A stretch of 55,246 nucleotides of DNA from Bacteroidota bacterium (GTDB lineage Bacteria > Bacteroidota > Ignavibacteria > Kapaibacteriales > UBA2268), in contig JAJXYC010000002.1 of assembly GCA_021780815.1 (NCBI GenBank), forward strand, positions 1 to 55,246, in the 5' to 3' direction. Of this stretch, positions 5,623 through 37,974 are shown in pieces; position 1 is the first letter of the stretch, and each line of letters opens with the position of its first letter. The notes beneath the pieces were generated by a model that ran no database searches, was not told the DNA's origin, and saw only the letters and a list, made by a program, of their open reading frames with translations. The position numbers were made by a program, and so were the translations under genes.

Positions 5623-7456
5623 ATTGAATATCATATAATTTACGATACATTCCATTTCTATCAATAAGTTCGAAATGGTTACCTGTTTCAATAATTTCAC
5701 CGTCTTTTAGCACTACTATATTGTCTGCATCAAATATTGTAGATAAACGATGAGCAACAATAATCGCCGTTTTATCTTTTAACACATTATTAATTGCATT
5801 TTGAACAATTTTCTCCGATTCTGTATCCAAAGAAGATGTAGCTTCATCAAAAATTAGTATTTCGGGATTTGAAAGCAAAGCCCTCGCAATTGCAATTCGT
5901 TGACGTTCACCACCAGAAAGAGTTATTCCTCTGTCTCCAACTATTGTATTAAATTTTTCAGGTAATTTATCAATAAAATCAAAAGCATTGGATAACTTTG
6001 TGGCAGTAACTATATTTTCAAATGGTATATCCATTCTTCCAAATCTTATATTATTTTCCAACGTATCATTAAAAAGTACAGTTTCTTGCGAAACCATTCC
6101 AAATAAATTATGGTATGAAGTGATTTGGAACGATTTAATATCTTGACCGTCAAGGGTAATATATCCTTCTTGTGGGTCATAAAAGCGAATTATTAAATCC
6201 AAAATTGTAGATTTTCCAGAACCACTTGGACCTACAATTGCTGTTTTCTTGCCTTTTGGAATTGTTAGCGTAATTTTCTTTAATGTTGGCTCTTGTAAGT
6301 ATTGGAAACTCACATTGTTAAACATAAGACTTTCTTTGAAGGTATTAACTTTTTCTTCACCTGAAACTATTGTTTCATTAGTTTGCAAAATTTCAAATAT
6401 TCTTTCAGCGGCAACATAACCTCTTGGAATTGAAGCATAACTTGAAATCACAGTTGTTAAAGGAGACATAATTGAAAACAGCGAAAATAAAAACAGCATT
6501 AAATCATCGCTTGAAAGTTGATGATTAATAACTTGTTCACCCCCAAAATACAAAATAAAAGTAAGAGCCATTATTGCAAATACTTCATTAAAACCTGGTA
6601 TTAAAGTAATTATCTTCTTATGCTTAACAGCGGCACGGACATAATTGGAAGTATCTTGGAAAAATCTATTTCTTATATGAGGTTCTGCATTATATGCCTT
6701 TATTGCCCTTATTCCATAAAAGGATTCCTGCATTGAAGTTGTATAATCGGACATTGCTTTTTGCATTCTATGAGCGTAGCGTGTTAAATATTTACGAGAA
6801 AACTTCAAAATAAAAACACTTACCAACGAAGTTGCTACAGCGATTAATGTTAAATTTACCGATATTGATAATAATAATATTGCAAATAAAATAACTTGGG
6901 TACCTTCCCTTAAAATAGTTGAAAATGCAGAAATTGATGCCGAACTTAATGCTGTTGTTTCATTTGCAATAATAGAAATCAATTTCCCTTGCTTTTGTTG
7001 TGAAAAGTACCCTACCGAAAGCGATGTCAATTTAGCAAACACTTGGTCCCGTATATTTTTTATTATTCCTTCTTCAAACTTAGCTGTTGCTACACTTGCT
7101 ATATATTTTATTATATTTTTTAAAATAAAAGAAACAATAATTAAAATACTTAAATTGATTAAACTTTTCAAAATACCTGATGGCGATATAATAATAGAAG
7201 AAATAAAATGGTAAAAACTTGTTTTCCAATTTTCCAAAATTTGCGGATTACCACCTGGCACTGATAGATTTGCCGAATTTTCTGTCCCAAAAATAATTTG
7301 GAATACTGGTTTTATCATTGCAACAGTAAAAGCATTTAATGTAGAAAACACTATATTCATAACCATTGCATATCCTATTAAGGAATAAAATGGTTTTATA
7401 AATTGTAATGTTTGTTTATAGATTTGATTTCGCTTTTGCTTTTCAGTTATATCCAT
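5612..7456 (-). CDS. ABC exporter, fused permease-ATPase (MsbA-like)
   Basis: This 614-residue half-transporter works as a homodimer in the inner membrane. Residues about 1-330 carry six membrane helices. The ATPase domain has Walker A GPSGSGKST (about 407), the signature LSGGERQRIAIA (about 510), Walker B 'ILIFDEATSSLD' and the switch His in 'AIIVAHRLST'. Closest in layout are the lipid A/phospholipid flippases of the MsbA type, but multidrug exporters share the architecture. The gene lies 32 bp after rsmI and 1-2 genes after a glycosyltransferase, which fits a role in envelope glycoconjugate export. Confidence 0.88.
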   Translation of the reverse strand: MDITEKQKRNQIYKQTLQFIKPFYSLIGYAMVMNIVFSTLNAFTVAMIKPVFQIIFGTENSANLSVPGGNPQILENWKTSFYHFISSIIISPSGILKSLINLSILIIVSFILKNIIKYIASVATAKFEEGIIKNIRDQVFAKLTSLSVGYFSQQKQGKLISIIANETTALSSASISAFSTILREGTQVILFAILLLSISVNLTLIAVATSLVSVFILKFSRKYLTRYAHRMQKAMSDYTTSMQESFYGIRAIKAYNAEPHIRNRFFQDTSNYVRAAVKHKKIITLIPGFNEVFAIMALTFILYFGGEQVINHQLSSDDLMLFLFSLFSIMSPLTTVISSYASIPRGYVAAERIFEILQTNETIVSGEEKVNTFKESLMFNNVSFQYLQEPTLKKITLTIPKGKKTAIVGPSGSGKSTILDLIIRFYDPQEGYITLDGQDIKSFQITSYHNLFGMVSQETVLFNDTLENNIRFGRMDIPFENIVTATKLSNAFDFIDKLPEKFNTIVGDRGITLSGGERQRIAIARALLSNPEILIFDEATSSLDTESEKIVQNAINNVLKDKTAIIVAHRLSTIFDADNIVVLKDGEIIETGNHFELIDRNGMYRKLYDIQFTY

Positions 7457-34345: not shown

Positions 34346-34496
34346 AGAATAATAAAAATAATAAAAAGAAAAAGTTAAAGAAATAAGATTAATTATTATT
34401 AATTATTATTCACTATTATTAATTTATGCTTTTAATAATTATTTATTAAATAAATATGAAATTAAAATTTATTTCTATAAAAACGTTTTAAGTAAA

Positions 34497-34550
34497 AGTG
34501 ATGGAGTTCGCTATAATTTTCTTTATTTACAAGAATGATAACTCCTATTA
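34497..34550 (+). ncRNA. Fluoride riboswitch (crcB motif) aptamer
   Basis: AGTG-ATGGAGTT-CGCT forms P1 with the conserved AUGGnGUU loop, followed by ATAA. A small P3 (TTCTT/AAGAA) is followed by TGATAACTCCTA, which fits the conserved UGAUnACnCC end. The loop GGAGTT pairs exactly with AACTCC, forming the pseudoknot that defines this riboswitch. It sits about 50 nt upstream of crcB, the gene this class normally controls. Fluoride binding is known for the family and inferred here from sequence. Confidence 0.9.
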
Positions 34551-34597
34551 TAAGATTTTTAAAGTTAGGAAAGAAGTTTTATAATTGGAGTTTTTTT
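34540..34597 (+). promoter_or_regulatory. Riboswitch expression platform: terminator hairpin hiding the crcB RBS
   Basis: AACTCC-T-ATTATAAGA (34540-34555) can pair with TTTTATAAT-T-GGAGTT (34577-34592), leaving a 21-nt loop and then a run of seven T (34591-34597) directly before the ATG. The 5' arm starts with the same AACTCC that forms the aptamer pseudoknot, so the two structures exclude each other. The 3' arm holds GGAG, the likely ribosome-binding site. Fluoride-bound RNA should therefore free both transcription and translation. Confidence 0.8.
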
Positions 34598-34981
34598 ATG
34601 TTTAAATCAATATTCCTTGTAGGCATTGGCGGATTTATTGGGAGTGTATCAAGATTTTTATCAACTCAAATAATTCACAAAGTTTTTACCACAAATTTTC
34701 CACTTGGAACGTTAATAGTTAATTTAATTGGAAGTTTAATTATTGGAATAATATTGGGATTATTTGAAAAAGGCTCACTGCTATCATCTGAATGGAGATT
34801 ATTTTTAACAGTTGGATTTTGTGGCGGTTTCACGACTTTTTCAACATTTGCAAATGATACAGTTAATTTAATTAGTGAATCGGAAGTTTTGTATTTAATG
34901 ATTTATATGGGATTAAGTATATTTGCAGGAATTTCCTTTACTTTTATTGGTAAAAATATAGTTGATTTTCTCTGGAGATAA
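34598..34981 (+). CDS. crcB: Fluoride channel CrcB/Fluc
   Basis: CrcB is a small dual-topology channel that expels fluoride. The 127 residues have four membrane helices and the family motifs 'GGFIGSVSRFL' (about 9-19), 'GTLIVNLIGSLIIG' with the key Asn, and 'GFCGGFTTFSTFAND' with the Na-binding and Phe-box region. The ATG at 34598 fits the family N-terminus and follows GGAG. A longer frame from 34535 would run through the riboswitch and is rejected. DUF190 starts 3 bp after the stop. Confidence 0.95.
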   Translation: MFKSIFLVGIGGFIGSVSRFLSTQIIHKVFTTNFPLGTLIVNLIGSLIIGIILGLFEKGSLLSSEWRLFLTVGFCGGFTTFSTFANDTVNLISESEVLYLMIYMGLSIFAGISFTFIGKNIVDFLWR

Positions 34982-34984
34982 TTT

Positions 34985-35356
34985 ATGGTAACAGAAGGCA
35001 AAGCCCAAGTATTAAGAATTTATATAGGTTCATCAGACAAGTTAAAACACACACCAATGTATGAAGCCATTGTTATGGAAGCAAAGCGATTTGGAATTGC
35101 CAGAGCATCAGTATTTAGAGGGATTTTATCTTATGGTGCTCATAGTCAATTGCATTCAGCAAAAATATGGGCGCTTTCCACCGACCTACCTTTAATTATT
35201 GAAATTGTCGATGAAAAAGAAAAAATATTAGCATTTATAGACCATCTTTCCGAATGGTTTGAAGCAACAGACTTTGGAGGTATGATTACAACTTACGAAG
35301 TAGAAATAATCAAATACCAAGGACATAAAAATAGACAAACAGAACAGTCAAAATGA
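34985..35356 (+). CDS. DUF190 family protein
   Basis: This 123-residue soluble protein of the DUF190 family has a ferredoxin-like/PII-like fold ('LRIYIGSSDKLKHTPMYEAI', 'ARASVFRGILSYG', 'LPLIIEIVDEKEKI'). DUF190 genes are frequent neighbours of crcB and are thought to help fluoride resistance or regulate the channel, though the mechanism is not settled. Its stop codon overlaps the MFS start (ATGA), so it is in the riboswitch-controlled transcript. Confidence 0.88.
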   Translation: MVTEGKAQVLRIYIGSSDKLKHTPMYEAIVMEAKRFGIARASVFRGILSYGAHSQLHSAKIWALSTDLPLIIEIVDEKEKILAFIDHLSEWFEATDFGGMITTYEVEIIKYQGHKNRQTEQSK

Positions 35357-36537
35357 AAAAAAATACAAATAGAGCGGCAGTAATTTTTGTAGTGCTTCTG
35401 GGTTTAGTAAGTCTTTTTTCTGATATGACTTATGAAGGAGCAAGAAGTATAAATGGACAATTTTTGGAATTGCTCGGGACAAATGGATTTGTTGTAGGAA
35501 TTGTAGCAGGAATTGGCGAATTATTTGGCTATGGGTTGCGATTGCTTTCAGGTTATTTAACCGATAAAACAAAACGCTATTGGCTGATAACAATTTCAGG
35601 TTATACTTTAAATTTAATTTCTGTTCCAATTCTTGCTTGGGCTGGTTATTGGCAACTTGCAGTAACATTTATGATAATGGAGCGAGTTGGTAAAGCATTA
35701 CGTTCGCCGGCAAAAGATGCTTTGTTATCTTTTGGAGCAAAACAAATTGGTGCTGGCTGGGGCTTTGGCTTACAAGAAGCATTAGACCAAATTGGTGCAA
35801 CACTTGGACCTATATTAGTTGCGGCTGTACTTTATTTTAAAAATCAAAATTATCACCTTGCATATTTCTTGCTTTTTATCCCTGCTATAATTGCAATTGC
35901 GATTTTATTTTATGCAAAATATCTTTATCCTAACCCTGAAAACTTAGAAGTCAAAACAAAATCGCTTGAAATAAAAGGTTATAATAAATATTTTTGGTGG
36001 TATTTGAGTGCTGTTATCTTTGTTGCCGCTGGATATGCCGATTTCCCTATTATCGCATATCATATTAAACTTAAACATCTGGTTAATGATTCGACAATTC
36101 CGTTAATCTATTCATTTGCAATGATTAGTGATGCCTTTGCCGCACTAATTCTTGGCAAACTTTATGATAAAATCGGATTAAAATCATTACTTATTGCAAT
36201 TTTATTATCTACTTTTTTCTCGCCTCTTATATTTTTAGGCAATTTAAATCTAATAATAATTGGAATGGCACTTTGGGGAATTGGTATGGGTGCACAAGAA
36301 TCAATTTTACGTGCTTTTGTTGCTCAAATTATTCCACAAAATAAAAGAGGAACTTCTTATGGCACTTTCAATGCTGTCTATGGTCTTTTTTGGTTTCTCG
36401 GGAGCAGTTTCATTGGTTTATTATACGATAAATCCTTAATCGCTTTAGTCTTATTTTCAACTATTACTCAAATAATTGGTGCTGTAATTATTTTTATGCT
36501 ATCACAATCTCATTTTTCAAAGCAAATACACAATTAA
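35353..36537 (+). CDS. Major facilitator superfamily transporter in the fluoride operon
   Basis: This 394-residue inner-membrane transporter has about 12 predicted helices. The loop 2-3 signature is 'RLLSGYLTDKTKRYW' (about 63-77), a form of the MFS motif A, and 'ALRSPAKDALLSFGA' follows in the next helices. Similar MFS proteins annotated only by family are common in Bacteroidota. It overlaps DUF190 by 4 bp (ATGA), so it is probably cotranscribed with crcB and under the same fluoride switch. Its substrate is unknown. Confidence 0.85.
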   Translation: MKKNTNRAAVIFVVLLGLVSLFSDMTYEGARSINGQFLELLGTNGFVVGIVAGIGELFGYGLRLLSGYLTDKTKRYWLITISGYTLNLISVPILAWAGYWQLAVTFMIMERVGKALRSPAKDALLSFGAKQIGAGWGFGLQEALDQIGATLGPILVAAVLYFKNQNYHLAYFLLFIPAIIAIAILFYAKYLYPNPENLEVKTKSLEIKGYNKYFWWYLSAVIFVAAGYADFPIIAYHIKLKHLVNDSTIPLIYSFAMISDAFAALILGKLYDKIGLKSLLIAILLSTFFSPLIFLGNLNLIIIGMALWGIGMGAQESILRAFVAQIIPQNKRGTSYGTFNAVYGLFWFLGSSFIGLLYDKSLIALVLFSTITQIIGAVIIFMLSQSHFSKQIHN

Positions 36538-36576: not shown

Positions 36577-37974
36577 CTATACAGGCAATAACCCGCTATT
36601 AATGGGCAACATCTGAAAAATATAAGATAGTGCATCAACTTGGTCGTCATTTTTCCCTTTTGGAAACTGCAGTAGTTCATTTTCAAACTCTTCTAAATAA
36701 ATAGCACCTTTTCGAAAATATACTTTGCCATTTTCAATCAATGAAGCAATAGGCAAAGCTCGAGAAATTTTATCTTTGTCTGGTTTTAATGATTTAATTG
36801 GTAATCCTTCTTTTATAGCACTTTGAATCAGCGATTGTTGATATTGAACATTTTCAATGCCAATTATAACAGGTCTATATTTCGCATAAATTGAATTTAA
36901 TAAGTTTATATGTTCATTAGTTTCAAAGCGTTCTCGAATAACATCTATAACCAAAATTTCGCCTGTTTGTGTTTTCCCAAAAACAAGAGCAACAGTATAA
37001 TCTGCTGTTTCTTTTGTTGAAATTGCCAAATCCATCGTAGCCATAATTGAAACTTGATTTTTTAAAATTTGTTTCTTCCCGGTTGGAGATATTGAAAGTT
37101 CAAAATAATTTTCAAAAGATTGAAAATAACAAAAGTGGGACCTTTTAAATATACTATGACCAGCAGGCACAGGCTCTTGCTGATACAAAGCGGAAAACCA
37201 ATAAGAACCAATTGCTTTTTTAATATTTGTAAGTTTATTAATATCAAAGCGATTTTTCCACAAAGGTTCCCCTACTTTTCTATTTAAAGCATCATTAGAT
37301 TTAGCAATAGCAGGCAAAGACAGATTTTTCCAAGATAACGAAGAAGTAATTTTTGATTGGTTAAGTAACCGCCCGGTAATATCATCTTCATGCCATCTTG
37401 TCATAACAATAATACAAGAACCATCTGGCTCAAGTCTTGTTAAAGCTGTTGAATTAAACCAATCCCAAACTTTATTGCGATAAGTTATTGAATTTGCTTC
37501 GGTATCGTTTTTAATAGGGTCATCAATTATCAACAAATCTGCTCCTTTGCCCGTTAAAGAACCACCAACACCTACTGCAACTAAACCACCACCATAATTT
37601 GCAATTTCAAACTCATTTGCTTTTCGTTTATTCGGGTTTAAATTTAAATTAAATCTGTCCCCAAAATTAATAAACATCTCTCTTATTTTTCGACTCCAAC
37701 TTTCTGCTAATGACGCTTGATAAGAAACAAGAATAATCTTTTTTTCGGGATAAACAGATAAATACCAAAAAGGGATATACTTTGAAATGAACTCACTTTT
37801 ACCATGTCTTGGTGGCATATTAACAATTAAATTTTTTGTTTCACCTTCTAAAATATCAAAAAAATTGTTTTCAATTAACCTTAAATGCGGCTGAAATTCC
37901 CATTTCCCTTGCGATGCGTAATAATCTAAAATCGATGGTGTGATTTTAGGCAAATATTTTATAATTTTGTCCAT
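36577..37974 (-). CDS. Phage terminase large subunit (solitary)
   Basis: This 465-residue protein has the two parts of a DNA-packaging motor. The ATPase has Walker A 'PPRHGKSEF' (about 54-62), Walker B 'LLIIDDP' (about 146) and a coupling motif 'IVMTRWHEDD'. The C-terminal RNase H-like nuclease has Asp in 'MATMDLAIST', 'VIGIENV' and 'GKNDDQVDALSYI'. All acidic residues look intact. No portal, capsid, small terminase or tail gene lies on either side, so it is a prophage remnant or a domesticated gene. Base composition is similar to its neighbours. Confidence 0.88.
   Translation of the reverse strand: MDKIIKYLPKITPSILDYYASQGKWEFQPHLRLIENNFFDILEGETKNLIVNMPPRHGKSEFISKYIPFWYLSVYPEKKIILVSYQASLAESWSRKIREMFINFGDRFNLNLNPNKRKANEFEIANYGGGLVAVGVGGSLTGKGADLLIIDDPIKNDTEANSITYRNKVWDWFNSTALTRLEPDGSCIIVMTRWHEDDITGRLLNQSKITSSLSWKNLSLPAIAKSNDALNRKVGEPLWKNRFDINKLTNIKKAIGSYWFSALYQQEPVPAGHSIFKRSHFCYFQSFENYFELSISPTGKKQILKNQVSIMATMDLAISTKETADYTVALVFGKTQTGEILVIDVIRERFETNEHINLLNSIYAKYRPVIIGIENVQYQQSLIQSAIKEGLPIKSLKPDKDKISRALPIASLIENGKVYFRKGAIYLEEFENELLQFPKGKNDDQVDALSYIFQMLPINSGLLPV

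Follow-up and report, generated by a model that had tools for sequence, protein, structure and literature searches.

A predicted fluoride riboswitch before crcB in an AT-rich bacterium, in which one hairpin may both terminate transcription and mask the Shine-Dalgarno sequence

Can a single hairpin, controlled by a single ligand, act on both the transcription and the translation of a gene? The question is raised by the leader of crcB in the window, by which we mean the whole stretch of 55,246 nucleotides analyzed here (contig JAJXYC010000002.1, from a Bacteroidota bacterium of the order Kapaibacteriales). The initial annotation had read this leader as a fluoride riboswitch whose pseudoknot strand doubles as a terminator arm, and whose terminator hides the ribosome-binding site (RBS). 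The published mechanism of fluoride riboswitches that act on transcription, as given in PMC11077080, has the pseudoknot strand double as the terminator base. The exchange of this strand is described as backed by covariation across many sequences (PMC13273304), and terminators overlapping the motif were already noted in its discovery paper (PMC2864571). In addition, Barrick and Breaker in 2007 listed dual attenuation as one of five platform categories, with the RBS in the 3' side of the terminator and a 10-nt distance rule (PMC2258182).

The crcB leader of this AT-rich bacterium carries a predicted fluoride-sensing RNA. Its assignment to the fluoride aptamer class, originally made by eye, found support in a covariance-model check, in which the Rfam fluoride aptamer RF01734 matched with 33.6 bits and an E-value of 5e-8 (cmscan, 201 nt searched). 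This is 0.4 bits short of the gathering score of 34, and a window-wide Rfam run at the gathering threshold did not list the aptamer. When the whole genome was searched with RF01734, the aptamer (33.6 bits, E 1.5e-7) stood at the top of 15 matches at E<=10, with the runner-up at 13.3 bits. The low score is attributable to AU-rich P1 and P2 helices in a genome of 30% GC. P1 (34497-34500/34509-34512 in the Rfam alignment) includes one A-U and one U-G pair, and P2, AU-only save for one G-C, is without the consensus CCGCC/GGC. Both helices are present in the alignment to the model, the pseudoknot GGAGTT/AACTCC forms 6/6 pairs, all 13 invariant columns of a 28-aptamer alignment that includes the window's own sequence are intact, and a fluoride-response gene, crcB (PF02537), follows directly.

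Table 1. Features of the crcB leader and the probable operon, in window coordinates
Feature	Position	Strand	Basis or remark
Fluoride riboswitch aptamer (RF01734)	34488..34554	+	Covariance-model match
GGAGTT, pseudoknot 5' strand in P1 loop	34503..34508	+	Sequence; position as in class (PMC11077080)
AACTCC, shared strand: pseudoknot 3' strand or hairpin base	34540..34545	+	Sequence, folding
20-bp hairpin, one 1x1 mismatch, 11-nt loop	34540..34592	+	Folding, -16.4 kcal/mol whole
GGAG, Shine-Dalgarno core at -11 from crcB start, within hairpin 3' arm	34587..34590	+	Sequence
U7 tract	34591..34597	+	First two U paired in hairpin, last U adjoins ATG
crcB, Fluc-type fluoride channel, 127 aa	34598..34981	+	PF02537, 101.9 bits; start set by alignment with relatives
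DUF190 (COG1993) gene, second in probable operon	34985..35356	+	PF02641, 108.6 bits; 3 nt after crcB
MFS transporter gene, third in probable operon	35353..36537	+	PF07690, 121.3 bits; 4-nt overlap with DUF190

As the initial annotation had it, AACTCC complements two copies of GGAGTT, one in the aptamer loop and one at 34587-34592, and the match proved exact to the base. The second pairing, AACUCC:GGAGUU in the RNA, forms the lower 6 bp of the hairpin, whose upper 14 bp consist almost entirely of A-U pairs. Folded within 34538-34600, the hairpin reaches -16.9 kcal/mol (z -4.03), and none of 200 dinucleotide shuffles was as good. The upper 14 bp alone reach -7.2 kcal/mol as opposed to -16.4 for the whole, so that the six contested pairs, worth about 9 kcal/mol, supply over half of the stability. 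With the hairpin ending 5 nt before the ATG, the gap lies inside the 10-nt rule for dual platforms as given in PMC2258182. Coordinates re-checked by script also confirmed the claim that the U-run stands directly before the crcB ATG (T7 followed by ATG at 34598-34600).

Both properties are rare in this genome: the longest T-run directly before an ATG is otherwise 6 (1 gene), with none of 282 gene starts reaching the 7 of crcB, and an upstream fold (-62..-1) with a minimum free energy <= -16 kcal/mol is found at only 2/282 starts. Terminator-like hairpins (<= -12 kcal/mol plus a U-run) are found in the 90 nt following the stop codon of 19/281 genes, compared with 0/281 for shuffled sequence and 1/281 inside genes, which supports termination at the crcB leader without proving it. 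A simple terminator scan of the window returned 0 sites; it missed the crcB hairpin because it allows only loops of 3-8 nt. The terminator d-score of +7 was given no weight, as the loop is outside the usual range of the formula. Given the AU-rich stem and the 11-nt loop, the strength of the terminator is uncertain. A promoter scan gave 10 sites, with 8.7 expected.

The claim that the 3' arm holds the RBS of crcB called for evidence from the host. Bacteroidia ribosomes are reported to fail at Shine-Dalgarno (SD) recognition (PMC9976891) and the nearest CrcB relatives are mostly from Bacteroidota (best identity 53%); for these reasons, SD use was tested genome-wide. An SD core at -17..-5 was found at 60/282 starts (400 kb of the window's own genome plus the window), against a background of 0.045 at 6753 internal ATGs and 0.043 in shuffled sequence. 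The cores peak at -12..-8, where the crcB GGAG also falls. A genome of the same family (G025) had the core at 35/142 starts and the E. coli K-12 control at 16/38; a genome of another class (G316) gave no signal, with 5/152 starts versus 0.106 at internal ATGs. These counts rule out the objection that GGAG is no SD since the host belongs to Bacteroidota. The signal at the genome's own starts indicates that this organism uses the SD, which leaves the claim of masking standing. Between the crcB GGAG and the ATG there is no second SD. A core at -18..-7 is present at 61 starts; at 18 of these it is fully paired, with -10.3 kcal/mol for the strongest case. A search of the window's genome for 16S rRNA found none.

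How accessible the GGAG would be was estimated by folding. In folds ending at 34604, its unpaired probability is 0.00 with AACUCC available and 0.80-0.87 without it. The latter value varies with the end of the fold, being 0.64-0.67 at 34612, 0.00-0.02 at 34620 and 0.11-0.59 at 34640; in the two longest folds GGAG instead pairs within crcB codons. With both pseudoknot strands blocked, GGAG is free at 0.16-0.30. The nearly complete pairing to crcB codons in the fold to 34620 suggests that the fluoride-bound leader may be incompletely open in the absence of ribosomes.

The controlled genes form a probable operon of three (Table 1). An in-frame ATG at 34535, within the aptamer, was considered as the crcB start and excluded, because relatives begin at the equivalent of MFK. 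DUF190 genes lie within 400 nt after crcB on the same strand in 75/143 CrcB loci, some of which end early. Homologues of the MFS gene are present at eight aptamer-bearing loci, including the window's own (L001, L013, L018, L019, L191, L197, L202 and L204), and the gene is a candidate fluoride-regulon transporter. Adjoining the operon downstream, on the minus strand at 36577-37974, is a gene for a phage-type terminase large subunit (PF17289, PF03237).

The explanation we favor, with a probability of roughly 60%, is a fluoride ON-switch with a dual platform, whereby one hairpin both terminates transcription and masks the SD. For this scheme we infer fluoride binding, termination, translation control and the order of folding. 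Without fluoride, the upper A-U stem (34547-34585 region) would close first and zip downward, pulling AACUCC out of the pseudoknot onto GGAGUU. With three G-C pairs in the stem base and U7 right behind it, transcription would then terminate just before the ATG, and transcripts that escape would have their SD buried in the hairpin. With fluoride, the pseudoknot would keep AACUCC, so the lower six pairs could not form; the leftover A-U hairpin would no longer adjoin the U tract, and GGAG would be freed for translation of crcB-DUF190-MFS.

The relatives of this leader show how the two parts of the layout are distributed. At E<=1e-3 the aptamer is found in 16/54 genomes of the GTDB family, the window's own included, and 14 of the 16 score above the Rfam cut-off, the window's being one of the two below. 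The four other genomes of the genus have no match at this limit. Across the order, it occurs in 15/123 genomes at E<=1e-4, every one of them in the window's family; the class gave 68/391 genomes and a phylum sample 48/395. Among 80 CrcB loci there were 8 clear aptamer matches.

For the comparison of leaders, 142 aptamer hits were reduced to 139 distinct ones and to 136 with an ORF (three leaders were duplicates, and three loci lacked an ORF >=80 aa). G488:C16, G696:C300 and the second copy of one G629 place were left out, L230 was not in the search, and a few weak matches in L200, L209, L211 and L212 fell short of the E-value limit. For genes other than crcB, the longest ORF was taken to begin at its first ATG or its first start codon, and some of these starts are uncertain. 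The pseudoknot has 5/5 pairs in 126/136 loci and 4/5 in 7/136, the other 3 having been misread by the script. Hairpins were classed with 60 mononucleotide shuffles per locus, which is strict: 16 loci filed as having none do have a hairpin <= -6 kcal/mol. So classed, 14 of the 136 loci have a hairpin <=12 nt from the start with a U-run >=5, 19 a near hairpin with a shorter U-run, 23 a distant hairpin with a U-run, 7 a start inside the arm and 4 a distant hairpin without a U-run, with none passing in 69. Within the family, 10/16 loci have near-start hairpins that pass, five with a U-run >=5 and five with a shorter one; two are distant with a U-run, four have none, and the in-arm and distant-without-U classes are empty.

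Seven of the family's loci precede crcB. In all seven the 3' arm contains GGAG, whose first base is 8 to 14 nt upstream of the ATG, and the longest U-runs are 7, 8, 7, 4, 4, 4 and 4. The dual layout therefore recurs in the family, with the masked SD as its constant part around crcB. Since the GGAG beside the start is constant and the U-run variable, SD masking has better support than termination; by the same comparison, masking appears to be the conserved part of the layout and termination the variable one. In a CrcB tree made by a quick method, the seven rows form one clade (SH-aLRT 96), and the tree, with 126 columns, few for 66 rows, is too weak for ordering the control modes.

Other arrangements were also seen. 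In L067, L105 and L144 the crcB start and first codons (ATG AAC AGG or ATG TAC AGG) complement the aptamer 3' strand, so that masking would fall on the start codon instead of an SD; of the three, L067 alone passes the hairpin test. Four genomes (G531, G637, G553 and G550, with loci L200, L202, L209, L211 and L212) contain 4 to 9 fluoride aptamers each, several in arrays. The four aptamers of L212 lie among genes for a dynamin-like GTPase (PF00350), an NADHdh-type membrane protein (PF00146) and a DUF6062 protein.

Three other explanations were weighed against the dual switch. The hairpin could act on translation only, hiding the SD and the initiation region, with the U-run as a non-terminating AT-rich spacer. 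The constancy of GGAG and the four crcB relatives with no U-run above 4 agree with this, as does the AU-rich stem. So do two groups of family loci: L017, L020, L021 and L023 lack a U-run but carry SD cores at -12..-8 (their hairpins fail the shuffle test), and L018 and L019, which precede Na+/H+ exchangers (assigned by a PF00999 match in L018, the one tested), have distant U-run hairpins and lack an SD core within the 25 nt preceding the start. A mere spacer, however, would have no need of the 7-8 U carried by three of the seven crcB relatives, and the U7 before this ATG is outside the genome's range. We regard this explanation as unlikely, though a serious competitor.

That the leader is a normal transcriptional terminator which happens to abut its gene appears improbable to us. 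Under this explanation GGAG is no SD but a forced complement: ACUCC is fixed by the aptamer, and any full complement therefore reads GGAGU. Indeed, 59/87 hairpin arms read GGAGT and 58/87 match the 5' strand of the pseudoknot exactly, and distant terminators of such kind exist in the class. Disagreeing with it, the genome does use SD sequences, the GGAG sits at the position they favor, and crcB has no other. A decayed, non-functional riboswitch in an AT-drifting genome is hardly credible. The score just below the cut-off, the weak P1 and P2, and the lack of the aptamer from the other genomes of the genus would fit decay, but the invariant columns and the pseudoknot are complete, and the hairpin and the crcB operon are intact. 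For the dual ON-switch, the proposal that one hairpin serves two modes thus holds in part: the parts are present and both modes are made plausible by the genome's SD signal and its terminators after stop codons, while U-runs of 4 in 4/7 crcB relatives speak against it.

How does this leader compare with characterized systems? Transcriptional crcB riboswitches of Bacillus cereus and Thermotoga petrophila share with it the aptamer class, the six-bp pseudoknot with its 3' strand as terminator base, and the ON logic, as described in PMC11077080 and PMC2864571; the predicted terminator in the window differs in abutting the start codon and carrying the SD. The 1901-sequence study, by contrast, places start codons mostly some 28 nt beyond the site of termination (PMC13273304). 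Translational fluoride riboswitches of Pseudomonas syringae and Burkholderia pseudomallei have the same aptamer class and control initiation. The account of them in PMC13273304 names them translational, without termination, whereas the window's hairpin is followed by U7. The dual attenuation platforms resemble the window's in that the terminator is so near the ORF that the RBS sits in the 3' side of the hairpin; the classes named in 2007 (TPP, AdoCbl, FMN, lysine and others) predate the fluoride class (PMC2258182), and their usual logic is OFF, as opposed to the ON predicted here.

The compact dual-mode layout is present as the initial annotation read it, but in the light of PMC11077080 and PMC2258182 it is not new. 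The parts and the layout are of known kinds, and the window's switch is a new clean example. No description of a dual-platform fluoride riboswitch was found in the passages searched, those of PMC9495176 among them, and no general claim of absence is made. What is added here is a good example, together with SD and terminator checks in the host genome and a graded series of relatives.

No concept is changed by this switch. It does suggest a tentative view of the family, one that we hold as a possibility only: the conserved ACUCC of the aptamer would be a built-in anti-SD, and a single hairpin could serve as terminator, as SD mask or as both, with only its distance to the start and the U-run deciding which. 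The graded series in the family, from SD masking with U4, through the dual form with U7-U8, to a distant terminator without an SD, might then contain the dual form as a step that interconverts the modes. SD-based control can be assumed in this organism despite the reported SD blindness of Bacteroidia. The leader is thus a natural, compact test case for whether one ligand-controlled hairpin acts at both levels, and relatives that share the layout but have a shorter U-run provide built-in controls.
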